From: Eubacterium sp.
GTDB taxonomy: Bacteria > Bacillota > Clostridia > Lachnospirales > Lachnospiraceae
Assembly: GCA_017477505.1 (NCBI GenBank)
Contig: JAFUVQ010000046.1
Coordinates: 1 to 64,000 of the forward strand
Direction: 5' to 3'
DNA length: 64,000 nt
Shown: piece after piece, positions 3,360 through 44,805 of the stretch
Position numbering within the stretch: the first letter of the stretch is position 1
How the letters are laid out: each line of letters opens with the position of its first letter
The notes under the pieces: generated by a model
Seen by the model: the letters and a program-made list of their open reading frames with translations, nothing else
Database searches by the model: none
Told to the model about the DNA's origin: nothing
Translations under genes and position numbers: made by a program

Positions 3360-3716
3360 ATGGTTCCTACAATCTATTGGGGGAACATCCTGAGATCGCT
3401 CCGCAAGAAAAAGGATCTTACCCAGAAGGAGGTTGCCGCCATCCTTCATATCACAAGACAGACATATTCAGGTTATGAAAACGGACGCATACATCCGAGC
3501 CCGGAAAGCATAGCCATACTGTCTGAAGTCTATGACATTGATATTTACAATTACATCTTCGCTCTAATGCCCGACTCCTTTGTGGCGGAAACCGCCGAAT
3601 ACAAAAAGAATATCAAAAGGCGTCTTAACAATTCTTCCACGACTCCGAATGAATTAAGAAAGCGTAGAAAGAAAATGCCTTATATGATAGATATGGATGA
3701 AACCGAATTAGGTTAA
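3360..3716 (+). CDS. XRE-family HTH transcriptional regulator
   Basis: 118 residues, start ATG 3360 after GGGAGGTACAGTTC. Residues ~8-62 form a Cro/C1-type helix-turn-helix: ILRSLRKKKDLTQKEVAAIL, then TRQTYSGYENGRIHPSPES. The tail is basic (KRRLNN, RKRRKK) and has no recognisable ligand domain. It is transcribed away from folA and converges on the receiver-domain gene; the two stop-codon ends overlap by 9 bases. The inverted repeat at 3232-3252 could be its operator. The regulated genes cannot be read from the sequence. Confidence 0.85.
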   Translation: MVPTIYWGNILRSLRKKKDLTQKEVAAILHITRQTYSGYENGRIHPSPESIAILSEVYDIDIYNYIFALMPDSFVAETAEYKKNIKRRLNNSSTTPNELRKRRKKMPYMIDMDETELG

Positions 3717-4670
3717 ATCAGGTTTATCAGCTTCATAAAGTATGGAAGTGTCTATACCAAGCGTATTGTTAAACTTTGTAAAGCAGTTATAGATATAATC
3801 CCACTCTCTTTCAAGTGCCGGATAGTTCTTTGCTGCTATCTCCAGGCTTTCGTCCTTTGCCATATTTACATGGTCATCAAAGAAGTCATAAAGTCTCTCT
3901 GCACCGGCCTTAAGGCTTATATCTCTCATGGTACGTGCATCTTCCATATATTTCATGGTATCACCGTCAAGAAGTTCATCCGGCATCCTGTCTTTGATGT
4001 CCTCAGTAAGCTTACAGAACTTAAGGATATAAGCATAGAGCTTTCTGACATCACCTTTACAGGCATCAAGAGTTTCCTGAAAATCGATACCTGCATCCGA
4101 AAGCATCTGCTCTTTTTCAGCATCCTCCTGTATAGTACGGAGCATGACCTCATTTTCCGGAAGCATATTTGGGGTTGCCTTGGAAATGATAACACTCATC
4201 ACAGTATTTACGCCTATAGGCTTCATAAGTGTTCTCTCAAAGCCATATTCAAGGAACTCTTCAGGATGGCGGGGTTCTCTTCTACGGAGCATAAGAATAA
4301 CTGCCGTATCCCTGTTCTTGTTGTCAGGGCTGTTCATGAGATTTTTCATGAACTGAACGCCGTCCATTCTATGCATATTCTTTGCCACAAGAATAAGATT
4401 GAACTTGTCCTTTCTTGCACACTCAAGTGCTGCAACGCCGCTGTCGGCAGTTGTCACAAGTGCACCTGCGTTTTCAAATACATTCTTCAGCTTTGCCAGG
4501 TCTTCTTCCTGATCATCCACAAGCAGAACATAAAACTTCCCCTGAAGCTTGAATACCTCTTCTTCCTCCTCGACCTCTTCATTATGAGCGAATCTTGAAA
4601 CAAAAGGAAGTCTTGATATTCCCGGTATATCCTGAATCTTATAAATTATATCATCAACATTTACTATCAC
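3708..4670 (-). CDS. Degenerate receiver / HPt-like two-domain protein
   Basis: 320 residues starting with GTG 4670, which overlaps the tyrS stop by 4 bases (GTGA), so translation is probably coupled. Residues ~45-165 are a CheY-like receiver: VLLVDDQ keeps Asp52/Asp53 and TLMKPI keeps the conserved Lys150. The phosphoacceptor position reads [13 protein letters not shown], so Ala96 replaces Asp, and the switch Thr/Ser is also absent. Residues ~185-300 resemble an HPt helical bundle ([20 protein letters not shown], then [11 protein letters not shown]), but the expected phosphorylatable His is missing. Both parts therefore look unable to take a phosphate; a binding or scaffold role is inferred. 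The acidic run [10 protein letters not shown] precedes the receiver. Confidence 0.75.
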
Positions 4671-5887
4671 TTTACCACTACCCTCTTAAAATTCTTCTTG
4701 CCCTTCTTAACTACTATACCTTCTGCAAAATCTTCTTTACTGTATGTAACAGCTATATCCGTAACCTTTTCCCCATCTACGGAAACACCGCCCTGCTGAA
4801 CGGCACGTCTTCCCTCACTACGTGACGGAACAAGTCCTGACTTGCTGAGTACTCCGAGAATATCAATTGTTCCATTCTCAAAGTCATCATCTGTAAGAAC
4901 CGCCTCAGGCATTCCCTCGGAACTTCCCGAACCGAATACGCCCTTTGCAGCAGCCTCTGCAGCCTTGGCCTTTTCTTCACCATGAACCATTGTTGTAAGT
5001 TCCAGTGCAAGAATCTCTTTGGCCTTATTAAGCTCTTCATTTTTCCAGTCTTCCATCTTCTTTATTTCATCAAGTGGGATAAATGTAAGGAGCTTCATGC
5101 ACTTGATAACATCGGCATCATCCACATTTCTCCAGTACTGATAGAACTCATAAGGAGAAGTCTTCTTCTCATCAAGCCATACAGCACCCTTTGCAGTCTT
5201 ACCCATCTTCTTTCCTTCTGAATTAAGGAGAAGAGTTATGGTCATGGCATATGCATCCTTACCGAGCTTCTTTCTGATAAGCTCCGTACCGCCAAGCATG
5301 TTAGACCACTGATCATCGCCGCCGAATTCCATATTGCATCCGTACTTCTGGTACAGCATATAGAAATCGTAACTCTGCATGAGCATATAGTTGAACTCGA
5401 GGAAGTTAAGCCCCCTCTCAAGTCTCTGCTTATAACACTCTGCAGCGAGCATCTTATTTACACTGAACTGTGAACCTATATCACGTATAAACTCGATATA
5501 ATTAAGATTGAGGAGCCAGTCAGCATTATTAACCATAAGAGCTTTATCAGGTCCGAATTCGATGAAACGGCTCATCTGCTGTCTGAAGCACTCACAGTTA
5601 TGCTCTATGGTTTCCTTTGTCATCATCTGTCTCATATCGGTACGTCCCGAAGGATCGCCGATATAACCCGTACCGCCGCCTACAAGTGCAATAGGTCTGT
5701 TACCTGCCATCTGAAGTCTCTTCATAAGGCAGAGTGCCATGAAATGACCTACATGAAGGCTGTCTGCAGTAGGATCGAATCCTATATAGAAAGTTGCTTT
5801 TCCGTTATTGATAAGTTCTCTTATCTCTTCTTCATCAGTTGTCTGGGCTATAAGGCCTCTCTCGACAAGTTCTTCGTAAATCTGCAT
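4667..5887 (-). CDS. tyrS: Tyrosyl-tRNA synthetase
   Basis: 406 residues, full length for the bacterial TyrRS subfamily. It charges tRNA-Tyr with tyrosine in the cytoplasm. The class I signature HVGH follows [12 protein letters not shown], and the second signature appears as KKMGKT (KMSKS variant). The last ~65 residues form an S4 RNA-binding domain ([20 protein letters not shown]). The start is ATG 5887 after GAGGTAGGAA. I looked in the short upstream region for a T-box specifier and terminator and saw none. Confidence 0.97.
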
Positions 5888-6005
5888 TTCCTACCTCGTT
5901 TCTGTATAGATTCACATATCCGGATCATCTGCCGATATGTGTCATTTACATTTTATTGATTCTCTCATTTTGGACTGTCACATTTTATCATATTTTGACA
6001 ATAAC

Positions 6006-7604
6006 TTAAACCTGATTTTTAAGCGAATTCTGTTTTGTTTCCTTGAAAATTCCGAATCCCTCATCACGGTATCTGATATACCCTACTCCTACACCCAGAA
6101 CGGTGAAGAAAATCGGCGTTGTTATAGGCTGGTTAAGGTTTACAAGCCCCTGGAAGAAATATCCAACACCCGCAGCCATCATTGCTGTTACAACAGGATC
6201 AGCCTTATATCTCCTGAGCATAAAAATGAGTGACGATACAAAGAAACCTATATAACTGATCGCTCCGAAAAGCCCTGTAGTAAGAAGGTAATGGATAACT
6301 TCGTTATGAGCATTGTCATATGACTTTCCGGTTACCGAAACCATCTCATCATAGTAAGGCTTCATGATCTCAGCTATGGATTCATTTCCATGTCCGAAAA
6401 GCTTATGGAGAAAACCACTTTCTTTATAAATAGACACCAATCTCCGCCATATATAGCCTCTGTAGGTTCCCCATTTATCATTAAATGTAAAGAGGTCCGT
6501 CTTTCCGGATTTCCTGCCAAGGATGAAAAGGCCGACACCCGCTATTACTATCAGTACCGCAAGCACTATCATAAGAGTCCTGCCCTGGAACTTCCCAAAG
6601 GCTTCCCCGTTCATCTTCTCCAGGAGGAACAGAATCACAAAGACTACCAAACATGCACCGAAAAGTGCACCGGTTATACGCCAGTCTCCTATCAGCTTGG
6701 CAATACCGTTTATATGCTTCTCACTTCCTCCGTATCTGGCCTTGATAAGAGTCATAATAAAAAGTCCTAGGCTGAGCAGAGTAACAGACAGCCAGTACGC
6801 AACCAGCTTTTTATCTTTGATTGAAATGAACAGAAGAAGCAGAAATGCCGTTCCGATTCCCAGATAAACATTATCACTCTTACTTGCCAGCATGGCCATG
6901 GAGGACATGATAACAATGACTCCCGAGATGATACGAATATCAATCTTCTTTGAATAGATCAGCACTGCCGCAAAAAGAGGAGTCGCAACACATATAAATG
7001 ACCCGAAGGTATTGATGTTTCCGAAAGTAGAAATGAAAAGCTGTTTCTGCTTTTGAGTGATATCTCTTATAAGGTCGAAAGGATCCATCCCAAAATGCTG
7101 CAGGTATGAAAGCACATATGCAAACGCAGTAACTCCCGCAAGAATGTATAGATTAATCCTATTTACATATACCTTCCTAGCCAGAATGAGAAATGACAGA
7201 ACAAGACAGATGATCATCAGAAGACCCATACGTCTTCCCTTGCTTCCGTCGTAGGCAGCCGCCTTGTCGGTTGCCATTAAAAATGCACATACATTTGCCA
7301 CAAGGAACAGACATGCCCAGAAATCAGGCATGGCAGGGATTTTACAGTCAAGGGAAAACATCGGTCCCCCACCATAATAATTATTCATGAAAATCTCAAC
7401 AGTAACGGCCAGCGCCGAAAGCACCAGAAGTCCCAGCACCCCGTAAAGAAAAACATAATTTCTGGTAGCCGTAATATTGAAATACTTATTATCCATATAT
7501 ACGAGGAAGAAGCTGGACATATAGAGAACGAACATATACTTTACGATGTCTATATGCCTCCATGCCCTCTTCTGATCATATGATGATTTCTTATTCGATG
7601 CCAT
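6006..7604 (-). CDS. O-antigen ligase / polymerase-like membrane protein
   Basis: 532 residues, start ATG 7604 after GGAGACTATAA. It has about ten to twelve hydrophobic segments and a long external loop at ~residues 360-430 carrying the Wzy_C/O-antigen-ligase hallmark: GHGNESIAEIMKPYYDEM, then SYDNAHNEVIHYLLTTGLFG. Proteins of this type join or polymerise lipid-linked glycans at the outer face of the membrane. In a Gram-positive cell the likely substrate is a capsular or wall polysaccharide, but no other polysaccharide gene is adjacent, so the substrate is unknown. A 118-bp gap separates it from tyrS. Confidence 0.75.
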   Translation of the reverse strand: MASNKKSSYDQKRAWRHIDIVKYMFVLYMSSFFLVYMDNKYFNITATRNYVFLYGVLGLLVLSALAVTVEIFMNNYYGGGPMFSLDCKIPAMPDFWACLFLVANVCAFLMATDKAAAYDGSKGRRMGLLMIICLVLSFLILARKVYVNRINLYILAGVTAFAYVLSYLQHFGMDPFDLIRDITQKQKQLFISTFGNINTFGSFICVATPLFAAVLIYSKKIDIRIISGVIVIMSSMAMLASKSDNVYLGIGTAFLLLLFISIKDKKLVAYWLSVTLLSLGLFIMTLIKARYGGSEKHINGIAKLIGDWRITGALFGACLVVFVILFLLEKMNGEAFGKFQGRTLMIVLAVLIVIAGVGLFILGRKSGKTDLFTFNDKWGTYRGYIWRRLVSIYKESGFLHKLFGHGNESIAEIMKPYYDEMVSVTGKSYDNAHNEVIHYLLTTGLFGAISYIGFFVSSLIFMLRRYKADPVVTAMMAAGVGYFFQGLVNLNQPITTPIFFTVLGVGVGYIRYRDEGFGIFKETKQNSLKNQV

Positions 7605-7801
7605 TTATAGTCTCCATCCCTTGTACAATACACACGTACATCACTTTGTCATTATTCGATGTATGTATACTGCTTTACAATTAAGTTATTTATATATCTA
7701 TAGTTTTACCAACGTACAAGTATATATTATAAATAGATTTTTGCAAGACTTAATCCCTTACCACTTAAAGAAACCGTAGGTTAGATACACCAGTCCTCTC
7801 C

Positions 7802-7989
7802 GCGGGAGAAGGGGATTTGACGTTAAGAAAAAGGTCCGGTGGACCTTTTTTAGTCAAATCGGGAGCAAGCTAAGCTTGCGACCTGACCGACGCCTTGCCT
7901 TGCAAGGCGGAGACCTTGAACCCTAGGGTTCAAGTGGCTCCGGCTTGCAAAAAGAAATAGCAGGTACATCGTACCTGCCATTTCTTTTT
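7802..7989. repeat. Array of five perfect hairpins beside a tRNA 3'-end fragment
   Basis: Non-coding stretch between the ligase gene and tRNA-Leu. Stems in order: AAAGGTCC-ggt-GGACCTTT, enclosed by an outer GATTTGAC/GTCAAATC pair (7814-7860); GCAAGC-taa-GCTTGC (7865-7879); CGCCTTGC-ctt-GCAAGGCG (7891-7909); the 20-bp palindrome CTTGAACCCTAGGGTTCAAG (7915-7934); and GCAGGTAC-atc-GTACCTGC (7949-7989). Positions 7802-7824 resemble the 3' end of the nearby tRNA-Leu with an internal deletion. I see no coding frame. Confidence 0.8.
7949..7989 (-). terminator. Rho-independent terminator of tRNA-Leu
   Basis: Immediately downstream of the tRNA on the minus strand. GGCAGGTAC and GTACCTGC pair around a 3-base loop, extended by AAAAAGAAAT/ATTTCTTTTT, so the transcript ends in a U-rich run. 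Confidence 0.7.
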
Positions 7990-7992
7990 CCA

Positions 7993-8076
7993 TGCGGGAG
8001 AAGGGACTTGAACCCTCACGACGTTGCCATCACTAGATCCTTAGTCTAGCCTGTCTGCCAATTCCAGCACTCCCGC
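7993..8076 (-). tRNA. tRNA-Leu (anticodon AAG)
   Basis: 84-nt class II tRNA. The acceptor stem GCGGGAG/CTCCCGC is perfect and the discriminator is A. CCA is not encoded. The anticodon stem is CTAGA/TCTAG with loop CTAAGGA, giving anticodon AAG at 8040-8042 (reads CUU). A long variable arm follows, then the T-arm with GGTTCAAGTCC. A TTGACA/TACTAT promoter lies 5' and a hairpin terminator 3', so it is its own transcription unit. An A at position 34 is normally deaminated to inosine. Confidence 0.93.
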
Positions 8077-8108
8077 TTATTCACCGCGTCACTCATGACG
8101 CGATGAGT

Positions 8109-8137
8109 ATAGTATCATTTTCATATATATTTGTCAA
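8109..8137 (-). promoter_or_regulatory. Sigma-A type promoter of tRNA-Leu
   Basis: On the minus strand the -35 element is TTGACA (8132-8137), the spacer is 17 bp and the -10 element is TACTAT (8109-8114). The region to the tRNA contains a CGCGTCA/TGACGCG inverted repeat. Confidence 0.75.
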
Positions 8138-8174
8138 CAACAAATTTATATTTTTTTGAATTTTTTTAAATAAC

Positions 8175-8531
8175 TTATGCAATAGCCTTCTTTGCCACTT
8201 CTACAAGCTTTGCAAATCCTTCAGGATCGCTGATAGCGAGCTCTGAAAGCATCTTTCTGTTGATATCTACATTTGCCATCTTAAGTCCGTGCATAAGGTT
8301 GCTGTATGAGATATCATTCTGTCTTGCTGCTGCGTTGATACGAGCGATCCAGAGCTTACGGAAGTCTCTCTTCTTCTCTTTTCTGCCTCTGAATGCATTT
8401 GCATCAGCTCTCATAACTGACTGCTTTGCTACTCTGTACTGCTTTGATCTTGCGCCTACGTATCCCTTTGCTGCCTTAAGTGTCTTATTATGCTTTCTCT
8501 TGGCATTTAAGCCGCCTTTAATTCTTGCCAT
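8175..8531 (-). CDS. rplT: Ribosomal protein L20 (bL20)
   Basis: 118 residues, standard length. It is a 23S rRNA-binding assembly protein of the large subunit. It starts [19 protein letters not shown] and has the basic helical N-terminal half typical of L20. The start is ATG 8531 after AGGAGGATAATAAA. It is the third gene of infC-rpmI-rplT. In this operon family L20 represses its own operon by binding the infC leader; that is family knowledge, and a matching leader with an attenuator hairpin is visible at 9307-9637. Confidence 0.98.
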
Positions 8532-8561
8532 TTTATTATCCTCCTAATCCAACTCTGACTC

Positions 8562-8759
8562 TTACATATAAGGTAAGATCTTGTTCATTACCTTGCTGTT
8601 TGTCTTATCTGTAACAGTAGCTTTTCTGAGATTTCTCTTTCTCTTAGCTGACTTCTTTGTAAGGATATGGCTCTTATATGCTTTATTTCTCTTAAGCAAA
8701 CCTGTTCCTGTTCTCTTGAAACGCTTTGCAGCCACTCTTTTTGTCTTTAACTTTGGCAT
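8562..8759 (-). CDS. rpmI: Ribosomal protein L35 (bL35)
   Basis: 65 residues, normal for bL35. It begins [20 protein letters not shown] and is highly basic, a small large-subunit protein. The start is ATG 8759 after GGAGGATAAAGAC. It sits 30 bp upstream of rplT and 27 bp downstream of infC in the conserved operon. Confidence 0.98.
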
Positions 8760-8786
8760 GTCTTTATCCTCCTAAATGATTTTAAT

Positions 8787-9290
8787 CTACTTCTTTGCAG
8801 CAAGAAACATGATCATGCTTCTTCCCTCAAACTTGGCCGGTTTGTCGATCACTGAGATATCACTGAGTTTCTCAGCAAAGTCGTCCAGCACTTCCTTTCT
8901 TTTATTAACATAAGCAAGCTCACGTCCTCTGAAACGAAGGGTAACCTTAACTCTGTCGCCCTTTGAGAGAAACTTCCTTGCCATATTAATCTTAGTATTA
9001 AGGTCGTTGTCATCGATATTAGGTGATAAACGTATCTCCTTGATATCTATGATCTTCTGCTTCTTCTTTGCTTCCTTCTCCTTACGCATCTGCTCATAAC
9101 GGAACTTACCGTAATCAGCAATTCTGCATACGGGCGGTTTAGCATTCGGAGAAACTCTGATAAGATCAAGTCCTGCTTCGTCAGCAATTCCTCTGGCGTC
9201 GGCAAGGCTCATAACTCCGAGCTGGTTACCTTCAACACCGATAACCCTAACTTCCTTATCTCTGATCTGTTCGTTGATTAAATAGTCGAT
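8787..9290 (-). CDS. infC: Translation initiation factor IF-3, apparent AUC start
   Basis: 167 residues with both IF3 domains: LINEQIRDKEVRVIG ... VSPNAKPPVCRIADYGKFRY at the N-terminus, a Lys-rich linker, then IKEIRLSPNIDDNDL ... GRSMIMFLAAKK. IF-3 checks start-codon pairing on the 30S subunit. There is no ATG, GTG or TTG at the expected place. The codon ATC at 9290 sits 8 bases after a perfect AAGGAGGT (9299-9306), and the next in-frame ATC is too far away. A rare start of the AUU/AUC/AUA class is the usual device by which IF-3 represses itself. A longer open frame extends upstream to 9653 but lies within the leader. Confidence 0.93.
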   Translation of the reverse strand: MDYLINEQIRDKEVRVIGVEGNQLGVMSLADARGIADEAGLDLIRVSPNAKPPVCRIADYGKFRYEQMRKEKEAKKKQKIIDIKEIRLSPNIDDNDLNTKINMARKFLSKGDRVKVTLRFRGRELAYVNKRKEVLDDFAEKLSDISVIDKPAKFEGRSMIMFLAAKK

Positions 9291-9306
9291 GACTTTGTAC
9301 CTCCTT

Positions 9307-9637
9307 ACATAAATAACTTCCCAATACTCTTTGAAGCATCCTGCCTCACGCTTAAGCGCAGTTTCCAGGTATATAAGAAAAGGCGGATAAACAATTATCC
9401 GCCTAAATACACAAAATAACATACCGGGTTCACAGGCCGGAACAAAAGCAGAGCTTATGTACATCGACACGCTGTAAAACTCGCAGTAAAGTATCTGTAT
9501 AAAACCCTGAACGCTGATCCATAATAGGTTCGTAAGTATACACCGACCTTTGTTCACTCGTAGGTGAAATATCGCATCAAGGTGAGGGCGGATAACCCTG
9601 CTTCTTTTAATTGATAGGAAACTCTGTTCCCACACGA
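9307..9637 (-). promoter_or_regulatory. infC-rpmI-rplT leader with attenuator (L20-leader type)
   Basis: About 350 untranslated bases lie between the promoter and infC. Near its 3' part GGCGGATAA and TTATCCGCC (9382-9403) form a hairpin followed by TTTTCTT on the minus strand, which is an attenuator. Firmicute infC operons carry an L20-responsive leader of this layout. I infer that class from position and the hairpin; the rRNA-mimicking pseudoknot was not verified. Confidence 0.65.
9378..9405 (-). terminator. Attenuator terminator in the infC leader
   Basis: Stem GGCGGATAA / TTATCCGCC with a 4-base loop, then a U-rich run on the minus strand, about 75 bases before the infC ribosome binding site. 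Confidence 0.7.
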
Positions 9638-34373: not shown

Positions 34374-36425
34374 CTACTTTAAAAAGCCTTTTGTTCTGTA
34401 TATAAATGTCACGCATTGTCCCCTGCTGCAGGTTTTGTCTACACCAAAGCTTCCATTTGGATATCCGGTTATGATTCCATTCTCCGATCCCCACTGAATA
34501 GCATCGAATAATGCATAATTCGTAGGAACATCCGAGAATGTCTGAGTCTTCTTCGCCGGCTCAGGTTTTCCGAAGAATCTCCAGATAAAAGTAGCTATCT
34601 GGGCTCTGGTACAGGAATCGTTGATCCCGAACTGCCCTGCCTTCTTTCCGGTGTAGCCGCTTACAATTCCATTTTCCGCTGCCCACTGAACAGCCTTGTA
34701 GAAACCATGGTTAACAGGGACATCTGTAAATGACTGCCCGGTGGTTTTGGGCTCCGGAGTTCCGGCATAGCGCCACAGGAACATAACCACCTGTCCTCTT
34801 GAGATAGTATCATTTACACCGAAAGTTCCGGCTTTGCTGCCGGTGTAACCAGATGCTATATTATTGTCAGTTGCCCAGTAAACGGAATCATAGAATGAAT
34901 GTCCTTCAGGTACATCCTTGTAGAGAATCCTGAAGCTTCTCTCTGCTCCGCCTGAATAATTACCGATACATTCTATAGTCACCTTAGCCATACCCGGCAT
35001 AGTATTATTCTCGAAGTAAAGCTGATAATCCTTACCTTTGGTAAGTATCTTTGCTCCATGTTTTATGGTTATCGAAGGTGTAATAGCTTTTCCTGTGTAT
35101 GTTTGAGCCTTAATATCCGGTATAGTCAGCTTATCGATACTGATACCGATAACATCATCACTTCCGGGGCTGTCCGAATTATCCTGTATAACAAAATCAT
35201 GTATATCGAATACAACCCTTTCCCTCGTTGAACCAGACGCCGGCATATAAGTCATATTCAGTAAACGCTTTGAACCGAGCTGAAGAAGGCTGACTCTGAG
35301 TATAGTCGCATCCGCCATCTTACAGTCGGGCTCGAATTCATAACCTTCCTTTGCCGTTATCTCGGCAAGACATCTATATTTGGAATTCTTCTTAAATGAA
35401 GTCTCTCCAAGTGACTTTACATTTTTCCATCCTTTGTCAGTATACTTGTACCAGTTGATATCAAAATCAGCAATTTCCGTCTGCTTTACTACAGGAAATA
35501 TCTTTGCTGTAGGAATCATATCCCCTTCTTCAGGATCTTCTTTATAATTATCAATGATCTGAACAGCTGCCTGCAAGGCACCTATCTCTTTCTTTTCCAC
35601 TGTTGACTGAGAAGCATCATTTACAGTAATGACAAATGTTTCGCATGCTCCGCCATAGTATGAATCATACCCTCTGCCATATTTAAGTGCAGAATCCAGT
35701 GAGACCAGATAGCATCCTGCTTTCTCGGGTTTAAATGTAAGAGAAGTACCCTCCACGGTTTCATTTACGGAAAAATCACTGTTACAGTAAGAAACAGAAT
35801 TTACAAAATACGGATCACTTTCACGGAACCAGTATGGAAGAGAATTAATATCCGGTTCGGTAAATGAAAATGTTTTTGATTCTCCGACATTCATCGTAAG
35901 ATTTGTAACTCTTGTTCCCGAAACAGCCGGACTTACATTTCTGAGATAAGTGATCTGATTTTCCTCCTGCTTCCATCTTTCCATCAGTTCCTCAAGGGAT
36001 CCGATATTCATACTGAATTCTTCGGAATAATGTTTCTTGCCATTGGTATCCGTTATCTCACAGTAAAACCTTAATGCACCCCAGTCAGTAGGGTCACCGC
36101 CTTTAGGGAATTTAACCGTATTAAACTTAAGTTCAGCGGTTTTAGTATCATAAAACCAGTCCTCCGGAGCGTCCACATCCAGTTCAGCAGTGTAGTCTTT
36201 CATCACGCCCTCAAGTTTGGTATACCACTGATAGCTTTTTGCTGTAAATCCCACAGGTTCTACACCGAAATTATAGATTCCGCCGCAATAAACAAAATGA
36301 TCGGCTTTGACAGTTTTTACGTCATTACTCTTCGCCAGAATCTTCGTGGTTCCGAGTGAGACCGCTGTCACTGTCAGAACCATCATCACGAGTATCAGAG
36401 CTATCCTTTTACCTTTCTCTTTCAT
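34374..36425 (-). CDS. Secreted SLH-domain surface protein
   Basis: 683 residues from ATG 36425 (MKEKGKRIALILVMM), preferred over an upstream ATG at 36458 that has no ribosome binding site. A signal peptide covers ~1-32. The middle ~450 residues are beta-rich, Ig- or bacterial-surface-like segments (PDIKAQTYTGKAITPSITIK resembles a repeat often seen in surface proteins). Three C-terminal SLH domains are clear: FYDSVYWATDNNIASGYTG...ISRGQVVMFLWR, FYKAVQWAAENGIVSGYTG...CTRAQIATFIWR, and LFDAIQWGSENGIITGYPNG...CSRGQCVTFIYR. It should be attached non-covalently to wall polymers. It is separated from the kinase operon by a terminator. Confidence 0.88.
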   Translation of the reverse strand: MKEKGKRIALILVMMVLTVTAVSLGTTKILAKSNDVKTVKADHFVYCGGIYNFGVEPVGFTAKSYQWYTKLEGVMKDYTAELDVDAPEDWFYDTKTAELKFNTVKFPKGGDPTDWGALRFYCEITDTNGKKHYSEEFSMNIGSLEELMERWKQEENQITYLRNVSPAVSGTRVTNLTMNVGESKTFSFTEPDINSLPYWFRESDPYFVNSVSYCNSDFSVNETVEGTSLTFKPEKAGCYLVSLDSALKYGRGYDSYYGGACETFVITVNDASQSTVEKKEIGALQAAVQIIDNYKEDPEEGDMIPTAKIFPVVKQTEIADFDINWYKYTDKGWKNVKSLGETSFKKNSKYRCLAEITAKEGYEFEPDCKMADATILRVSLLQLGSKRLLNMTYMPASGSTRERVVFDIHDFVIQDNSDSPGSDDVIGISIDKLTIPDIKAQTYTGKAITPSITIKHGAKILTKGKDYQLYFENNTMPGMAKVTIECIGNYSGGAERSFRILYKDVPEGHSFYDSVYWATDNNIASGYTGSKAGTFGVNDTISRGQVVMFLWRYAGTPEPKTTGQSFTDVPVNHGFYKAVQWAAENGIVSGYTGKKAGQFGINDSCTRAQIATFIWRFFGKPEPAKKTQTFSDVPTNYALFDAIQWGSENGIITGYPNGSFGVDKTCSRGQCVTFIYRTKGFLK

Positions 36426-36540
36426 CCTTTTTGCCCCCCCCTTAATACCGATTTTCATAACATTACAGAAATCAGAATAACTAACGTCGCCGAATTACGG
36501 CGTTAATCGTTATAATTATAACACTCATCGGGCATAAAGA

Positions 36541-36572
36541 AAACAAAAAGGGGCAGGGAATCCCTGCCCTGC
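36541..36572 (-). terminator. Terminator of the kinase/FHA/ABC operon
   Basis: GGGCAGG and CCTGCCC pair around GATTC and continue into CTTTTTGTTTTC on the minus strand, downstream of the SLH fragment. A second A/T-rich hairpin (CCTAAAAAA/TTTTTTAGG, 36629-36654) lies between. Confidence 0.8.
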
Positions 36573-36979: not shown

Positions 36980-37813
36980 CTACCGTTTATCCTTATCAAC
37001 CTGTTTAAGGAAAATGCAGCCCGTAGCACTATATAGCAGACTGTATCCCACAAGAACTCCCCAGCAGGTCATTATATGCTCTACCGTTCCGGCATATTCC
37101 ACATCATTATCAATCTCATCGTCCAATAAAGTCGCCACCTCCATTGTAGGGAGTTCATTAATTTCAGCCGAACTGCAGATTGCACTTACTCCCCATTTGC
37201 TAACAGTAAAATGCCTTATAAAAGACGCTCCGTCAGGAATTGCAAACATCGCACCTGATAAAACAAGCTGAATGATAAGCACAAAGGGCATAACCGTCAT
37301 AGCAGTATTTTCATTTTTTACAATACAGGAAACCATAAGTCCCAATGCATCAGCAGCAAATATGGTCAATGTAAATGAAATCAGGAACTCAGCCCACGAC
37401 CAGCCCAGTATTACACCTTTTTCGGGGAATTTAACAAATACCGAGAAAACAATATCCATGATTACTGCTTGTGCAAAGCACTGAATGAATTCAAAGATCA
37501 GATGTGCTGCTATATATGACGATATATGCAGTCCGGTTCTGTGTTCTCTTTTGATTATAGCTCTTTCACGACATATCGACTGGATGGAATTAAAAAGCCC
37601 CGTCCATATGCAACCGCATATAAGAGCAAAAACGCCCTGTTTTGTTGATTCGAAAAGAACAAACACATTATCACCGATTATCCACGATAGGATAATCGAT
37701 ATGATAAGTGTACTGATAAGTGATTTCCACCCTTTTTCATTTTTAAATGTTCTGAAACATTTTCCCAGATATATTTTTATCTGTTGTATTCTTCCTGCTC
37801 CGTTTTCGTTCAT
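36980..37813 (-). CDS. ABC-2 type transporter permease
   Basis: 277 residues. ATG 37813 (MNENGAGRI) follows AAAGGATTGAAAGCT; the frame extends slightly upstream. About six membrane segments are visible (STLIISIILSWIIG, GVFALICGCIWTGLFNSI, EFIQCFAQAVIMDIVFSVFV, FLISFTLTIFAADALGLMV, VMPFVLIIQLVLSGAMF, and ILVGYSLLYSATGCIFL near the C-terminus), typical of ABC-2/ABCG-like exporters. The gene starts 27 bp after the double-FHA ATPase, which must be its partner. Substrate unknown. It ends with TAG followed in the same frame by an SLH remnant. Confidence 0.85.
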   Translation of the reverse strand: MNENGAGRIQQIKIYLGKCFRTFKNEKGWKSLISTLIISIILSWIIGDNVFVLFESTKQGVFALICGCIWTGLFNSIQSICRERAIIKREHRTGLHISSYIAAHLIFEFIQCFAQAVIMDIVFSVFVKFPEKGVILGWSWAEFLISFTLTIFAADALGLMVSCIVKNENTAMTVMPFVLIIQLVLSGAMFAIPDGASFIRHFTVSKWGVSAICSSAEINELPTMEVATLLDDEIDNDVEYAGTVEHIMTCWGVLVGYSLLYSATGCIFLKQVDKDKR

Positions 37814-37840
37814 AGCTTTCAATCCTTTGATTAACAATTA

Positions 37841-39448
37841 TTATCCTTTATAATCTCTATACTTTTCAATATAGTAGTCAGACAGACCTTCACCGTTTTC
37901 ATCCGGTCTGTTGATCTTTTTGACTATATCCCTGAACCTTTCTGCTTCAAAGAATCTGAAGGCCTCATCGACCGATCCGTAGAATGCAAGGTGGCCACTA
38001 TTATCCACAGTGCTTTTTGCAAGTACTATCACCTTATCAAAAAGATCTATAGCTCTTTCAGGACTATGTGTGATAATCATAACAATCTTACCGTCATCTG
38101 CTATTCCACGTAATGTCTCCATAAGCCCACGGCCCATAATATCATCCAGACCTGAATCAGGTTCATCAAGGAAAAACAAAGAGGGATCTGAAATCAATTC
38201 AACAGCAATGCTGAGTCGCTTCTTCTGTCCCCCGGACAACTTGCTTACAAGCGAATTTTTCTCTCGGCTTAGTCCCATTTGATCAAGAACCTTATCAAGC
38301 TTTGCATGTCTTATATCTTTAGACATACTTCTGGGCAGACGCATCTCAGCGGCATTATCCAGTGTATCATATACCGTATCTTTTTCACGGATCAGATCCT
38401 GCTGCGGCACAAAACCGATTTCGTATTTCATTCTCTCATATTCCTGATAAATATCAGTATTTTTATAAAGAATGCGCCCATCAGCTTTTTCATATCCCAT
38501 TACGGCATTCATGAAAGTTGTCTTTCCTGCCCCTGAACCGCCCAGTATAAGAACCATCTCTCCACTGTTTACAGAAAGATTGATGTTCTGAAGAAGTGTC
38601 ATCTGCTTAAAACGCTGCACGACATTTCTTGCTACTATGTTGATTACAAGATCTGCAGATGTGTGCTGTTCATATTCAGCATTCCGGTTGTTCACGGCCT
38701 GATGTCCATACCTGTCATTCTGATTGTTTCCGGCATAACCGTGCAGTCCGGATTGGAAAGTTTTTTCTGCAGATATATCTGTATAGTAAAGCTCCTCACC
38801 CATAAATACGAAAAACATATCTGCAATCCGTACCACGTCAAACGGCTCAATGTACTTTGGAACACTCATCCTCTTCCCATTGATATATACACCATTTGTA
38901 CTTCCGTGATCTATGACGGCCCATCCGTTCTGCGTATTGAAAAATGATGCATGCTTTTCGGAAATCATAGGATTCTGAACACGAATTCCATTCTGTACGC
39001 TCCTTCCGACACATATCTCAGCGACAGAATCATCAAGCTGCTGTTTTTTCCAGCTATCCGCACTGACTGTGGTTGAAAAAAGCATCATAACCATATCTGA
39101 ATGATGTTTGTTTTCTTTCCAGATATCAATGATAATCCTGTCACCGTTATTCAGTAATGAATACATTTTACAGTTTTTTGAATTCTTTCCGATATATTCA
39201 CTATTGATATAAGTACCATTTGTGCTCTCTTTATCAACATATGCAAAACCACCGTCCTTAGGAGCTATCTGACCATGCATTCTGGAAACTATAGGTGAAT
39301 CTATCTGAATATCTGCTGTACTGCCGCCCATTTTACGGCCTATCAAAGTATTTATCCCCAGTTTGTACGATCCGGCAAATCCATTTCTGTCAAATACACT
39401 GACTATCGAATCCACCAAATTCTCATTATATAAAACTGTCTCTGCCAT
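37841..39448 (-). CDS. Double-FHA ABC transporter ATPase
   Basis: 535 residues, start ATG 39448 after GGGAGAAAATGTG. FHA1 (~30-110) has LIGRK, SRMHGQ and STNGTYIN; FHA2 (~140-215) has VGRS, SEKHASF and STNGVYING. These are the residues that bind phosphothreonine. After a ~50-residue Asn/Gln-rich linker comes an ABC domain of the White/ABCG type: Walker A GGSGAGKT (303-310), Q-loop FVPQQD, signature LSGGQ (404-408), Walker B FFLDEP and THSPERA. FHA domains on an ABC ATPase predict control by the adjacent Ser/Thr kinase. In Mycobacterium, Rv1747 has two FHA domains, ATPase and permease in one chain and is phosphorylated by PknF; here the permease is a separate gene. Confidence 0.93.
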   Translation of the reverse strand: MAETVLYNENLVDSIVSVFDRNGFAGSYKLGINTLIGRKMGGSTADIQIDSPIVSRMHGQIAPKDGGFAYVDKESTNGTYINSEYIGKNSKNCKMYSLLNNGDRIIIDIWKENKHHSDMVMMLFSTTVSADSWKKQQLDDSVAEICVGRSVQNGIRVQNPMISEKHASFFNTQNGWAVIDHGSTNGVYINGKRMSVPKYIEPFDVVRIADMFFVFMGEELYYTDISAEKTFQSGLHGYAGNNQNDRYGHQAVNNRNAEYEQHTSADLVINIVARNVVQRFKQMTLLQNINLSVNSGEMVLILGGSGAGKTTFMNAVMGYEKADGRILYKNTDIYQEYERMKYEIGFVPQQDLIREKDTVYDTLDNAAEMRLPRSMSKDIRHAKLDKVLDQMGLSREKNSLVSKLSGGQKKRLSIAVELISDPSLFFLDEPDSGLDDIMGRGLMETLRGIADDGKIVMIITHSPERAIDLFDKVIVLAKSTVDNSGHLAFYGSVDEAFRFFEAERFRDIVKKINRPDENGEGLSDYYIEKYRDYKG

Positions 39449-39496
39449 ATCACATTTTCTCCCTATCAGGTTCTATTCTTCTTCCGTGAATGCGTC

Positions 39497-42481
39497 TTAA
39501 TCGGTTGAAGCTCCGGAATCCTCTGCTTCATCCTCTGCTTCATCTTCATCGTAGAAAATAAAGTTCTGATACTCCCTCAGCATGGCTTTCTCAGAATTAT
39601 TTGCTCCAACTACGATTATCTTAACATTTTCGTCCTCGCTGAATTTTTTCCAATCAATCTCATCATCATATGAAATAGCCAAAGTGAATTTCATATTTGA
39701 AAACGCTGATGCTTCCTTAATACTCAGGTTTTTCAGATGATCGGTTATAGGATTCCCATACAGTGAAGCATATCTTAGTGTCGGGTGGTCATTCATAGGG
39801 GAATAATTCGATATTTCATTATTATGAAATGTCACCTTGTTAATGTTTTTCATTCTTTTTATAACAGATATATCCTTTATATTATTATTTGCTGCGATCA
39901 GAGTGTTGCACAAGCAATTTTCTAAAACAGAGATATCTTCTATTTCATTATCACGGATATCTATTATATACGGATTCTTCTCAATATTGGGAAGATACTT
40001 AATAACGCTGATATCCTTGATTTTGTTAGATGTTATCGCAATTACCTCCAGATCCGGCATGTTTTTTAAAACAGATATATCTACAATCTTATTATTCTTC
40101 AAATATAAGCGCTGCATAAAAATGCATCTTTCGAGGCATGAAATATCCTCCACCTCATTATTTGATATCGTCAGATATTTCATCGCATAGCTATTAGCAA
40201 GAGGAGAAATGTCTGTTATCCGGTTGTCATTCAGGTATACAGAATTAAGATCACTGCAAACAGATAATCCTGATATATCATTTAATTTATTATAGCTTAT
40301 ATCCAGCATATTCAGACTTGTTGCACAGGTCAGCTCAGGTATCCTTTCAATTTCATTTTCGGATATCGTCAGATCCACTATCGCGTCACTTGCAACCAAA
40401 GAACTCATATCTGTTATTTTATTTTCATCAAGCACGACAATTTTTAGCATCGTACAGGAATTAAAACAACTTATATCTGTGATATCATTATCTCTGAGGT
40501 AGATATTAGTCAGCTGAGTAGTATTTTTAAGCATTGAAATATCGGAAATGCTGTTGTGCGAAGCATCTATATTGCGTAGGCCTTTTATACACGGACTTAA
40601 AAAATCCAGACTTTTAAGATTGCTGCCTTCGCAATTAATGTATTCTAAAGTTTCAGGCAACCTGATCGTAGCCTCGTCAAGATTGGTATTATTATTAAAA
40701 TCTAAACTACTAAGTCCACTGATCTTCTCGAGAAAGCTGAAATCAGATACCTTTGTTTCGTTAACATACAATCTGTCAATAGAATTAATTTCCGATAGCG
40801 GAGTAAAATCAGTAACATTTGTCCCCGATAAATGGAGAGAGTTTATATCATCAAATTTGCTAAGAGCTGATATATCCGAAACCGGCGTATAGTCTAAATA
40901 AATATATTTTAAGTTTTTTAATTCCGACAATCGGGAAATATCAGAAACACCTGTTTCATTAAGGCTGATAGACGACAGATTATTCATTGATAATAAAGAT
41001 GATATATCTGTAATATCAGGATTCCTATCAACATTCAGATCACTCAGCTGATGAAGATCGGATATAATTTTAAGACTATCATTATTCAAATTGCATTTTC
41101 TGAGCGACAGTTTTTCAAGATTCTTCATTTTTGATAAAGATTTCAGCTCTTTAATGCTGATTTCCTTTGAGTACATACTTATTTCAGTATCATTGCGATC
41201 TACTGTCTCGCCGCCTATTGTTATCGGTCCGCCGGAAAACATCACAGCAAACAGCAAAATTACAGCTATAACAACTGCTGCACTAACAGCTGTTATAACC
41301 GTTATTTTCTTTTTCTTATCTGATTTTGGTATTTGTTGTTTATAATTGTCACTTGATTGGTAGGATTGGCGAGGCTTGGTATCTGCCTGATGTCGGGAGC
41401 TACTGTCTGACTGACGATTGGATTTGTTATCCGCCATATGTCGGGATTTATTGTCCGATTGATGCTTCGGACAGGCATTCGGATAATCCGGGATTTCATT
41501 TTTTTTATCTGCCGAAGTAACACTGCTCATATCATCCTGTGGGATATAAACAGTATTGATTTCTAAAGTTTTTTGGTCATCTGAACTATCATAACCTGCC
41601 ATTGCCGCTTCGCAGGCTGATATCATTTCCGACATGCTTTGGAATCTGCTATCTTTATAGACAGCCATCCCCTTCATTATAACAGCATTTTCAGTATCAT
41701 TTGTATCGGGATTAAGCTTGGTAATAGGTTCAACATCATCCTTAAATAGACGATTCATTGAGTCATCCGGTGTCTCCCCGGTAATCATTTTATACATAGT
41801 AGCGGAAAGAGCATAAATATCGGTCCATGGACCCTGTTCTCCCTTTGTTCGGTACTGCTCTTCGGGTGCGAATCCCGGTTTAAGTACTATAGACAGGCTC
41901 TTCTCCCCCTCTTTGCTTATCTCTCTGGTTGCGCCAAAATCAAGCAGTACCAGACTGCCATCATTCAGGAGCATTATATTTGAAGGACTGATATCCCTAT
42001 GGATCAGACCCTTTTCATGGATTTTGTCAAGAGCTTTCATAATGGGCTTCAGCATATTATATGTGTCAGCAAATGACATTCTTCCGTTTTTCTCAAGATA
42101 CTCTTTCAAGTTAATTCCTTCAAGATAATCCATGACAATATAAGCAGTATTGTTCATCTCAAAAAAGTCTCTTACGGTAACAATGCTATGTTCCATTGAG
42201 AATTTTGCAAGAATTCTTGCTTCTTTCAGAAAACGATCTTTTCCTTTCTGAAACAAGTCGCCACTCGCATTTGAGAAAATACTCACATCATCCGATTCTG
42301 TATTTATTCTGTTGACCATTCCGGCCGGATAATACTCTTTGATAGCAACCTTCATGTCCAGAGTATTGTCCCGTCCTTCATAAGTAATACCAAAACCGCC
42401 TTTACCGATAACACCTCCAACAACATATTTATTGTTGAGAATAGTACCCGGCTTTAAACAATCTGCAAAATTGTTTTTCAT
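39497..42481 (-). CDS. Transmembrane Ser/Thr protein kinase with extracellular leucine-rich repeats
   Basis: 994 residues, start ATG 42481 after GGACGGATAAGAAA. Kinase domain ~15-295: glycine loop GKGGFG (26-31), VAIKEY with Lys48, catalytic HRDISPSN (161-168), DFGATR (181-186) and APEEQ. All catalytic residues are present; the usual Lys of HRDxK is Ser. A hydrophilic Ser/Asp/His/Gln linker (~300-390) leads to one membrane segment (393-415, TVITAVSAAVVIAVILLFAV). Outside lie ~20 internalin-like leucine-rich repeats of ~22 residues (440-930) with the recurring N..I.DIS.L pattern, and an acidic tail (DEDEAEDEAED). The LRR part is the likely sensor. Gene order: subtilase, kinase, FHA-ABC ATPase, permease. 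Confidence 0.93.
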   Translation of the reverse strand: MKNNFADCLKPGTILNNKYVVGGVIGKGGFGITYEGRDNTLDMKVAIKEYYPAGMVNRINTESDDVSIFSNASGDLFQKGKDRFLKEARILAKFSMEHSIVTVRDFFEMNNTAYIVMDYLEGINLKEYLEKNGRMSFADTYNMLKPIMKALDKIHEKGLIHRDISPSNIMLLNDGSLVLLDFGATREISKEGEKSLSIVLKPGFAPEEQYRTKGEQGPWTDIYALSATMYKMITGETPDDSMNRLFKDDVEPITKLNPDTNDTENAVIMKGMAVYKDSRFQSMSEMISACEAAMAGYDSSDDQKTLEINTVYIPQDDMSSVTSADKKNEIPDYPNACPKHQSDNKSRHMADNKSNRQSDSSSRHQADTKPRQSYQSSDNYKQQIPKSDKKKKITVITAVSAAVVIAVILLFAVMFSGGPITIGGETVDRNDTEISMYSKEISIKELKSLSKMKNLEKLSLRKCNLNNDSLKIISDLHQLSDLNVDRNPDITDISSLLSMNNLSSISLNETGVSDISRLSELKNLKYIYLDYTPVSDISALSKFDDINSLHLSGTNVTDFTPLSEINSIDRLYVNETKVSDFSFLEKISGLSSLDFNNNTNLDEATIRLPETLEYINCEGSNLKSLDFLSPCIKGLRNIDASHNSISDISMLKNTTQLTNIYLRDNDITDISCFNSCTMLKIVVLDENKITDMSSLVASDAIVDLTISENEIERIPELTCATSLNMLDISYNKLNDISGLSVCSDLNSVYLNDNRITDISPLANSYAMKYLTISNNEVEDISCLERCIFMQRLYLKNNKIVDISVLKNMPDLEVIAITSNKIKDISVIKYLPNIEKNPYIIDIRDNEIEDISVLENCLCNTLIAANNNIKDISVIKRMKNINKVTFHNNEISNYSPMNDHPTLRYASLYGNPITDHLKNLSIKEASAFSNMKFTLAISYDDEIDWKKFSEDENVKIIVVGANNSEKAMLREYQNFIFYDEDEAEDEAEDSGASTD

Positions 42482-42503
42482 TTTCTTATCCGTCCTTTTT
42501 TAA

Positions 42504-44621
42504 TTATTCCGTAAATCCTTCATCTATCCCCGCAGTCGTAACCGGATACACTGTCGGATTGATCACCTGCCCTGTAAGGATACTGTTTAATTCTGCCTGA
42601 TATTCACTTTCCGTGATATCATGATATTCATCTACAAAAAATCCGGCATTGACATATCTTGATACCAGACCGGAACCGTCATTCAATAATGAGTATGATA
42701 GATATTTACTCTCATCTATACCAATTATATTTCTTATTTCATCAATAAACGGAAAAACATTTATGGAATTGTAACCATTATAGTTATCTTTCCAATAAAC
42801 TACGCCATTATTATAAAGTGTGATATCCGGAGAATTAAGATCTCCCCTTCCATCCATAAAACAGTTATTCTTCTCTATAACCTGCCCGTCCATGTTCTCA
42901 TACATTCTAAGAAGCCCCATATCATTCACTGAATATGTACCTGCTGAATAAAATGTTGTCCGGAGGAGAAGCTCATTTGCCCCATCGTTATCAAAATCCG
43001 CCAGGCAATACTGCATCCATGTGGTACCACCATTTGTATTTATCTGTCCGTTACCGTCCCTGTCATAGAATACCGCCAGTCCATCTATATAATCATCAGC
43101 ATCATCATAACCCTGCTGAAGGAAATTTCTAAATGCTAAATCATCAGGAGAATAATCACCTGTCGATGCACTGCAGTTAAATGCTGCATCAGCTGCATTC
43201 CCAGCATTAATAAGCGGATAAACGCCTGTTGCTACGGGCGCATCTTCATTTGGGCAAACCATGGTAACACCTGACTCACAAATGATTCTTTTTACATCAG
43301 CCGCATGAAGCTGAGGATTAATTCCCCAGATGACAGCAGCAGTACCGGACACATAGGGTGCAGAAAAAGAGGTCCCATTCATGTATTCACATCCACCGCC
43401 GGCTTTAAGGCAAAGAATATCCGTCCCGGGCGCACAAACATCAACATTGCTTCCAAAGTTGGAATAGTAATCCATATAGTATTCCATACCTGACAAAGCG
43501 ACGGCACCTACTACAATCACATGATTTCTGATTTCTTCATAGCTGTATAAGTCCATATAACAATTAGCGGGTGTGATACTCGCAAAAAGCCCGTTATACA
43601 CTGAGTCTACACCATAATGATCATTCGCACCGTTTCCCGCACTTTGAACTATAAGAAAATCATAACCTTGACTCAAAAGTGTCGAAATCTGTAAAGATGC
43701 AACCATGCCTTCCCTGTACATGTCAGCGCCACTATGGCAATCATTAAGATTTCCACTTTGACCAAAAGAAAGATTTACGATCCTGTTCCCATCCTTTATC
43801 GCCTGAACCACATAAGCTATCAGCGTACTGCTTGGTACGGAATCGGAGCTAACCGAATAACCGTTTATATGGGCATTGGGCGCTACACCGGAAATACCAT
43901 CACCATTATTAAAAACTGCACCGATAACTCCCGAAACAGCAGTTCCGTGACCCGGTGCAACCGAAGGTGATCCGGATGATGATATTGCATCAAGCCGCCC
44001 GGCAAGGTCCCGGTGATTCACATCAAAGCCACTATCTACAACTCCTACATTTATCTGACTCATCATGTCCTTATAACCCCATGCATTTGGCGCACCTATC
44101 GCTTCAAGTCCCCAATTATCACCTGCCGGGTATTCTCCCCACGCATCTGAATATCCATCCGCAGGGAAATAAGGTTCAACATCAGAATCATAAACCTCAT
44201 CGATATCCGCTATAACAACATTTTCATTTGCTTCAACCTGTGTACAAAGGTTCATAAGATCATAATGACTCCTTGCACTGATCTTAATCTGAAGCTGATT
44301 CAGCGTATCAATCCTACCGACAATTACACCGTTCACTTCATCAACAACAGCATTTTTGTCAGCTTCAGATACGCCGGACTTAAAATATACAATAAGAATA
44401 TTGCTTACATATCTGATGCCGTTGTCTTCTTCTATAACCCCTTCCTTAGACGGATCATATGCGTAGTCATTTCCTGCAGATGTCACTTCAGATTCAGTTG
44501 TCGCCTCTGTCAAGGAACCTGTAGTAACTGACACATTGCTATCTGATGTATCGTCAAAGCAACCGCATAATACGCACATTACCAATATAAGGGCTAATAC
44601 AATACCGCTTTTTTTCTTCAT
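42504..44621 (-). CDS. Secreted subtilisin-like (S8) protease, lipoprotein
   Basis: 705 residues, start ATG 44621 after GGAGGAAATTG. A lipoprotein signal peptide ends in VLCGC (Cys21). Residues ~70-145 resemble an I9-type propeptide. The catalytic triad is complete: Asp196 in GVVDSGFD, His225 in GHGTAVSG and Ser418 in NGTSFSAPYVSG; oxyanion Asn330 is in QSAGN. After the protease domain, ~500-705 contains calcium-loop-like DRDGNGQIN and DFDNDGANELLL and a domain of unknown role. It would be anchored on the outer face of the membrane. It is the first gene of the operon with the LRR kinase and the FHA-ABC exporter, so it may process an exported product or the sensor. Confidence 0.92.
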   Translation of the reverse strand: MKKKSGIVLALILVMCVLCGCFDDTSDSNVSVTTGSLTEATTESEVTSAGNDYAYDPSKEGVIEEDNGIRYVSNILIVYFKSGVSEADKNAVVDEVNGVIVGRIDTLNQLQIKISARSHYDLMNLCTQVEANENVVIADIDEVYDSDVEPYFPADGYSDAWGEYPAGDNWGLEAIGAPNAWGYKDMMSQINVGVVDSGFDVNHRDLAGRLDAISSSGSPSVAPGHGTAVSGVIGAVFNNGDGISGVAPNAHINGYSVSSDSVPSSTLIAYVVQAIKDGNRIVNLSFGQSGNLNDCHSGADMYREGMVASLQISTLLSQGYDFLIVQSAGNGANDHYGVDSVYNGLFASITPANCYMDLYSYEEIRNHVIVVGAVALSGMEYYMDYYSNFGSNVDVCAPGTDILCLKAGGGCEYMNGTSFSAPYVSGTAAVIWGINPQLHAADVKRIICESGVTMVCPNEDAPVATGVYPLINAGNAADAAFNCSASTGDYSPDDLAFRNFLQQGYDDADDYIDGLAVFYDRDGNGQINTNGGTTWMQYCLADFDNDGANELLLRTTFYSAGTYSVNDMGLLRMYENMDGQVIEKNNCFMDGRGDLNSPDITLYNNGVVYWKDNYNGYNSINVFPFIDEIRNIIGIDESKYLSYSLLNDGSGLVSRYVNAGFFVDEYHDITESEYQAELNSILTGQVINPTVYPVTTAGIDEGFTE

Positions 44622-44805
44622 CTTTTCAATTTCCTCCTGACGCCTCTCCCTTTATCTCCTCGGATAAAGCCGGAACATAAGAATTCCATCGCTGCTTCCT
44701 CTGCATTTAATACCTTTTCTTAGAATCAAGGTAAATATTATTTATATTATCTTAGCATAAGTTATTTGAAGTTATAAATCAATTTACAGAAGCCGGACAG
44801 CGTGA

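Follow-up and report, generated by a model that had tools for sequence, protein, structure and literature searches.

Control of export by Ser/Thr kinases acting through FHA domains has been worked out, in the literature that we found, for the transporter Rv1747 and for the type VI secretion system (T6SS) pathway. According to one report (PMC3908365), the genes for PknF and Rv1747 of Mycobacterium tuberculosis make up a two-gene operon, Rv1747 belongs to the ABCG subfamily of ATP-binding cassette (ABC) proteins and is an in vitro substrate of PknF, and both of its FHA domains are needed for two-hybrid interaction. In the T6SS pathway, as described in a second report (PMC3953482), Fha binds phosphothreonine on TssL, which activates secretion. 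Here we analyze a stretch of 64,000 nucleotides from Eubacterium sp. (Lachnospiraceae; assembly GCA_017477505.1, contig JAFUVQ010000046.1, positions 1 to 64,000), hereafter the window, and describe a predicted operon that looks like a variant of PknF-Rv1747 with an exchangeable sensor. Its genes encode a subtilase, a membrane Ser/Thr kinase with an ectodomain of leucine-rich repeats (LRRs), an ATPase with two FHA domains preceding its ABC domain (FHA-ABC), and an ABCG-type permease. Most likely, a ligand at the LRRs would act through the kinase to produce phosphothreonine, to which the FHA domains would dock to promote export; each functional step is what we infer from gene content, domain integrity and conservation, which were observed as described below.

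A comparison with PknF-Rv1747 had already been drawn in a first-pass annotation of the window, and it proved apt. Common to both is a Ser/Thr kinase encoded upstream of an exporter that has two N-terminal FHA domains with their binding residues, an ABCG-type nucleotide-binding domain (NBD) and a transmembrane domain (TMD). The kinase and ATPase genes lie on the same strand with a gap of 48 bp, a spacing that suggests one operon. However, Rv1747 is a single polypeptide, whereas the window encodes ATPase and permease in two genes, so that FHA, NBD and TMD are not joined; in addition, the window kinase carries an LRR solenoid, and a subtilase is added. The annotation had correctly named the split as a difference from Rv1747. 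Among relatives, however, both arrangements are common, and the clostridial loci with a fused form (37 of 54 in the table) are nearer to Rv1747 in architecture than the window is.

Other known systems are less similar. The system resembles the T6SS PpkA/PppA/Fha pathway in that PpkA is the closest PDB match of its kinase domain, an FHA reader governs a secretion machine in that pathway, and a PP2C gene lies beside many relatives. The machine in the window is an ABC transporter, and we rejected membership in the T6SS pathway: Pfam named no T6SS component, structural genes included, among the ten proteins scanned around the operon. Plant LRR receptor kinases act with subtilase-processed peptide ligands, and they share with the window an LRR ectodomain, one transmembrane helix, a cytoplasmic kinase and a subtilase in the unit. 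Here, however, the LRRs are internalin-like repeats of 22 residues and the kinase is bacterial; the likeness is one of layout only.

Our searches of open-licence literature listed papers on Rv1747, T6SS, plant LRR kinases and unrelated subjects, of which none, to judge by titles and abstracts, describes an operon of LRR kinase and FHA-ABC genes or a fusion of FHA and subtilase domains. At least in its main text, a review of bacterial Hanks kinases (PMC6213207) contains neither "leucine-rich" nor "LRR". With gene order linking it to a single downstream target, a bacterial LRR receptor kinase would provide a clean model of how such kinases sense ligands in bacteria.

Predicted proteins of the operon

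Coordinates of the four genes are listed in Table 1. Pfam finds FHA (E-value 1.5e-28, in two stretches) and ABC_tran (8.8e-29) in the ATPase, which retains all ten residues checked for phosphothreonine binding (GR, S, H and N per domain): G37, R38, S55, H58 and N77 in the first FHA domain, and G148, R149, S163, H166 and N185 in the second. This agrees with the first-pass call of an ABC ATPase with two intact FHA domains. Walker A (residues 303-310), signature (404-408) and Walker B (424-430) motifs are present; these, like the motifs of the kinase below, were read against the usual patterns. Among 55 FHA-ABC proteins, the Walker A Lys and Walker B Asp are kept in all, and the FHA residues in most (first domain: Arg in 50 and His in 50; second domain: Arg in 50 and His in 51). 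The best NCBIfam model for the NBD is TIGR00955, at a score under its whole-protein cut-off, and the best PDB match is ABCA3, followed by other ABCA and ABCG-type chains. Three relatives of the ATPase come from metagenome-assembled Clostridia (sheep colon, water buffalo cecum and an uncultured Lachnospiraceae).

The gene next to that of the ATPase matches PF01061 (1.5e-19), in accord with its annotation as the permease of this ATPase. A profile built from it and 19 related permeases (A1) matches the transmembrane parts of ABCG2, ABCG1, ABCG25 and ABCG5 over nearly the whole profile length. For its start we prefer ATG at 37813 to TTG at 37837, because the permease at a related locus, L039, aligns from residue 9.

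The kinase, of the Hanks type, matches PF00069 (2.4e-33) and LRR_4 (3e-42). Its parts are a kinase domain (residues ~12-295), a linker (297-391), a single helix of transmembrane length (392-415) and an LRR solenoid (~433-958). In the AlphaFold model, which was built on a five-row alignment, the kinase domain has moderate and the linker low confidence; the solenoid consists of 24 strands between residues 433 and 958, mostly at high pLDDT, with a final part at 53-77. The PF00069 match and the helix fit the annotated membrane Ser/Thr kinase, and the strand count vindicates its estimate of about 20 external LRRs. The best PDB matches are PpkA (5hnv, 4.6e-50) for the kinase domain and internalin A for the LRR part. 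Residues K48, E87, D163, N168 and D181 are invariant in this kinase and the four other LRR kinases described below.

Two other classifications of the kinase were considered. We rejected a PASTA (Stk1/PknB) kinase, because the ectodomain consists of LRRs, Pfam found no PASTA match in the protein, and NF033483 scored 179.6 bits against a cut-off of 450. For a defence-system candidate, the PADLOC listing, which shows no curated cut-off, gave matches mainly on shared domains (kinase, ABC or S8), some reaching the linker and transmembrane helix; in a comparison with the anti-phage systems PD-T4-6 and MADS, NF047741 (MAD6) scored 126.1 bits against a cut-off of 460.

The subtilase (PF00082, 3.1e-37) consists of a lipobox (L-C-G-C), a Fervidolysin-like propeptide, an S8 domain and a C-terminal tail. 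The lipobox, a lipoprotein signal, and the Asp/His/Ser motifs typical of subtilases are readable, and the annotated lipoprotein subtilase is thereby upheld. The closest full-length relative (L142, 45% identity) is the one relative with the same tail. At that locus, a divergent kinase with a weak RyR-domain match (positions 3590-6214) is encoded three genes before the subtilase. The best NCBIfam model for the window subtilase, the type VII secretion mycosin TIGR03921, scored 101.2 bits against a cut-off of 278.75, and this assignment was rejected.

Kinase genes beside related exporters

To survey related loci, the permease or its profile was searched against overlapping genome samples. Matches were found in 13 of 61 genomes at genus level (the window genome among them), 41 of 397 at family level, 25 of 392 at order level and 17 of 391 at class level; E-value limits were 1e-15 or 1e-20, depending on the search. 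Neighbourhoods were annotated by using models grown from the window proteins, and PP2C and trypsin models grown from relatives. The tabulated loci comprise 17 split FHA-ABC loci (window included), 37 loci with a fused FHA-ABC-permease and 34 loci without FHA on the ATPase.

Kinase genes occur within five genes at 12 of the 17 split and 23 of the 37 fused loci (35/54 in total), compared with 3/34 FHA-less loci. Four loci missed by the open reading frame (ORF) caller are absent from the table: L165 and L169 belong to the FHA-ABC group and have a kinase, whereas L183 and L202 belong to the FHA-less group and showed none. With these four included, a neighbouring kinase is found at 37/56 FHA-ABC loci and 3/36 FHA-less loci. 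PP2C genes are similarly enriched (split 5/17, fused 13/37, or 18/54 in total; FHA-less 0/34). The expected link between kinase and exporter is therefore seen in relatives, although the Fisher p of 1.5e-7 for kinase enrichment overstates independence, because the FHA-less loci largely represent one clade.

Some loci required separate treatment. L189 has a kinase but its ATPase is off the contig, so it is in neither group, and L198, which repeats L097, is likewise absent from the table. L097 was counted as FHA-less though its ATPase is off the contig, and so was L110, though an FHA gene and a kinase adjoin it. The gene caller keeps the longest ORF and may hide a gene on the opposite strand, as it did a PP2C gene at L097.

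An LRR kinase is encoded directly upstream of a split ATPase/permease pair at five loci: the window, L039, L041, L157 and L163. The latter four kinases are 39%, 31%, 41% and 29% identical to that of the window, respectively. These loci came from ATPase or permease searches, which did not select for an LRR kinase upstream. Built from all five kinases, a profile that was searched against the 397 family genomes has matches in 79 at 1e-60 or below, nearly all to the kinase part. Kinase and LRR parts are joined in three genomes, each time at one of these FHA-ABC loci; with two candidates scored per genome, LRR kinases away from such loci may be missed. One further match (G612) is to LRRs only.

The first-pass annotation had suggested searching relatives for co-occurrence of all four genes. 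Kinase, FHA-ABC and permease genes are indeed conserved together, with the LRR form of the kinase in five genomes, but the subtilase is not.

Elsewhere, kinases in these neighbourhoods carry other extra domains: SBP_bac_8 (L093; weak in L185), NPCBM (L113 and L118), MORN (L114), TPR (L110, L118, L152 and L159), SH3_3 (L171), DUF6273 (L153), NHL (weak, L193), DUF5050 (L187) and Sel1 (L168, with no transmembrane helix called). Scans of the kinases near FHA-ABC genes at L112, L117, L121, L150 and L151, and of that at L097, found no further named domain. Because the ectodomains differ between loci, the sensor is, to judge from these domain matches, exchangeable around a constant core of kinase and FHA-ABC. 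The clostridial family thus contains many natural variants that differ in their sensor and in whether the pump is split or fused, and a rule of "sensor plus FHA-gated pump" can therefore be tested by comparison.

In a tree of the transporters, the window groups with L039, L157, L040 and L185 (support 99), within a clade of nine split-form rows (97). Fused rows stand apart from split and FHA-less rows, with the exception of L110. Among members of the split clade in which no LRR kinase was found, L158 and L185 have PP2C genes and kinases without an LRR match, L040 has PP2C genes and the start of a kinase gene at the contig end, and L188 lies on a 5.8-kb contig.

FHA-less split pairs, which occur in the same bacterial family (L083-L092, L099-L109, L172, L174, L176-L179, L181 and L182), have homologous NBD and permease proteins encoded by two adjacent genes. 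Most of their ATPases differ in having a hydrophobic, transmembrane-rich N-terminal region in place of the two FHA domains, and their genes rarely have a kinase nearby, as counted above. This region of the L083 ATPase has no Pfam match.

Proposed kinase-gated export and its alternatives

We assign a probability of roughly 0.6 to the reading in which the LRR receptor kinase gates the ABCG-type exporter through docking of FHA domains on phosphothreonine, with the protease as an accessory. In brief, the LRR ectodomain would meet something outside the cell, and the kinase, by analogy with PknF-Rv1747, would phosphorylate threonines on itself, including its own linker, or on the ATPase. The FHA domains, whose binding residues are in place, would dock on these phosphothreonines, and docking would cluster or activate the ATPase and the separate permease. 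To judge from the transporter class, the pump could export a lipid, glycolipid, peptide or other envelope molecule. PP2C genes are present elsewhere in the genome, and a product of one could reset the system. In the weakest step, the subtilase, anchored outside the membrane close to the exporter, might cut the cargo or the LRR ectodomain.

Several observations weigh against this reading, in addition to the clade bias of the FHA-less control loci. At the position in the catalytic loop where most Ser/Thr kinases have Lys, the LRR kinases have Ser (residues 161-166 are HRDISP in 5/5). The linkers of the five, in which a conserved phosphothreonine motif was sought, do not align, so no docking site can be named there. 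No kinase lies within five genes at 19/56 FHA-ABC loci, some of which are on short contigs, and intact FHA residues are not significantly more frequent with a nearby kinase (30/35) than without one (14/20; p = 0.18). Besides the LRR kinase, 13 kinase matches were found in the genome (a total of 14, of which one is below the cut-off), so another kinase could be the partner of the exporter. Finally, a subtilase occurs within five genes of FHA-ABC at only 2/54 loci, the window and L096, the latter because a gene truncated where the L096 stretch ends is the fusion at L143 described below.

In the most probable alternative, the unit consists of kinase and FHA-ABC exporter, and the subtilase is a secreted protease with no relation to it, placed by chance at the upstream end of the transcription unit. 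We consider this possible, though clearly less probable than an accessory role. The gene adjoins FHA-ABC genes at 1/54 tabulated loci, the window itself, so the annotated membership of the subtilase did not hold up in relatives, and the idea of a fixed fourth gene was rejected. In addition, 23 of 30 sampled subtilase loci, many on short contigs, lack kinase or FHA genes within five genes. The contig of L142 shows no FHA-ABC gene upstream of the subtilase and ends ~200 bp downstream of it, with the kinase/exporter side unseen.

On the other hand, just 22 bp separate the subtilase and kinase genes, and proteases are joined to FHA domains elsewhere. A search with the window subtilase found at L143, which overlaps L096, a protein with FHA, transmembrane and subtilase parts (positions 6008-9097). 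Its gene is four genes downstream of the fused FHA-FHA-ABC-permease of L096, with FHA, kinase and FHA-trypsin genes between. At L206, a subtilase-VWA-transmembrane-FHA protein (6166-9384), with the opposite domain order, has as neighbours FHA genes and a pair of kinases, of which one shows a weak PASTA match; no FHA-ABC gene was seen at that locus. Trypsin-FHA fusions occur in the exporter clusters L094-L096 and L184, beside the L097 permease, and, by our model, in the window genome itself (L123, L124 and L125, the last under the Pfam cut-off). At 7/30 subtilase loci, the window among them, the subtilase either has a kinase or FHA gene within five genes or is itself fused to FHA (7/29 without L225, which has no S8 match by our model). 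These observations lend real but indirect support to the view that a protease works with such kinase/FHA systems, and stop short of proof for this gene. Membrane fusions of FHA with subtilase or trypsin suggest that cytoplasmic phosphorylation can position proteases outside the cell.

A less probable alternative is that the FHA domains read phosphothreonines from other kinases, for example those of a PASTA-kinase/FHA/VWA/PP2C cluster on contig C60. The exporter would then serve a wider network as one of its outputs, and the LRR kinase would act on other substrates. The genome's 14 matches to kinases and 19 to FHA domains, and the FHA-ABC loci that lack a nearby kinase, are consistent with this arrangement. 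Moreover, other kinases may feed into the exporter because the first FHA domain of Rv1747 also reads a phosphorylated universal stress protein (PMC5549992). However, the order of LRR kinase, FHA-FHA-ABC and permease genes is kept in five genomes despite the low identity of the kinases, and kinase-LRR proteins of this type were found only at FHA-ABC loci, within the two candidates scored per genome.

The C60 cluster itself (L122-L123, the first 40 kb of the contig) has seven kinase matches, two with PASTA domains, as well as several FHA proteins, two PP2C genes and VWA-FHA and FHA-trypsin proteins. Similar clusters in three relatives from the genus (L094-L096) hold a fused FHA-FHA-ABC-permease; none was seen on C60.

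We regard as improbable a peptide signal or bacteriocin loop, in which the pump exports a peptide, the subtilase removes its leader, and the LRR kinase senses the product. Lantibiotic systems likewise keep a subtilase, an exporter and a sensor kinase in one operon, and a basic 23-codon ORF overlaps the subtilase start. Nevertheless, no precursor gene was recognised, the permease is ABCG-type rather than a peptidase-containing peptide exporter, and the other four LRR-kinase loci showed no subtilase. Nor was a small peptide gene shared by the five LRR-kinase loci seen when one was sought. The comparison covered ORFs of 18-75 codons that lie outside larger ORFs and have a ribosome-binding-like site; no such ORF was listed at L039 or L163, and those at L041 and L157 are, by eye, unlike the 23-codon ORF. 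Slightly less probable still is a plant-like loop, in which the pump would export a ligand precursor, the subtilase would mature it, and the kinase would sense the product and control the pump by way of phosphothreonine-FHA docking, giving autocrine or paracrine signalling. In a broader form of this reading, FHA domains in Clostridia would generally place external subtilases or trypsins at kinase-controlled exporters.

Equally doubtful is an ABC protein that exports nothing and instead acts as a scaffold in signalling or envelope tension, using ATP hydrolysis to drive conformational signals to or from the kinase. Genes for kinases, FHA proteins and PP2C do recur in the neighbourhoods, with no recurring cargo gene recognised by eye, but the NBD motifs are intact and the permease profile has the ABCG match noted above.

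Gene arrangement and flanking features

The ORF list bears out the four minus-strand genes of the first-pass annotation and its gaps of 22-48 bp, which in gene order are 22, 48 and 27 bp, the last measured to the permease ATG (the alternative TTG would leave 3 bp). From this spacing we infer co-transcription from subtilase to permease.

Table 1. Features of the predicted operon and its flanks in the window
Feature	Position	Strand	Evidence or remark
Subtilase (S8) lipoprotein, 705 aa	42504..44621	-	Pfam PF00082
Membrane Ser/Thr kinase with LRR ectodomain, 994 aa	39497..42481	-	PF00069 and LRR_4
FHA-FHA-ABC ATPase, 535 aa	37841..39448	-	FHA and ABC_tran
ABC-2/ABCG-type permease	36980..37813	-	PF01061; TTG at 37837 is the other possible start (36980-37837)
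S-layer-homology (SLH) protein remnant, 97 codons	36677..36970	-	Begins 9 bp past the permease stop
Terminator-like hairpin	36551..36569	-	3' of the SLH remnant
Possible 23-codon ORF	44618..44689	-	Ribosome-binding-like site; stop overlaps the subtilase start

A terminator had been placed at the end of the operon. The hairpin exists, but the claim is only loosely right, because the SLH fragment intervenes and the hairpin is 410 bp beyond the permease end. This fragment is 34% identical to the C-terminus of a neighbouring gene (34374-36458) and probably lies outside the system. The neighbouring gene has no match at 1e-40 among the 60 other genus genomes searched. The possible 23-codon ORF ahead of the subtilase gene may be a leader ORF, a peptide gene or a chance occurrence.

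The genome that carries the window has 3.2 Mb on 76 contigs, of which C8 holds the operon. The split FHA-ABC form occurs in 1 of the 61 genus genomes searched, and this patchy distribution, together with the SLH remnant at the junction, would fit acquisition of the operon as one block.

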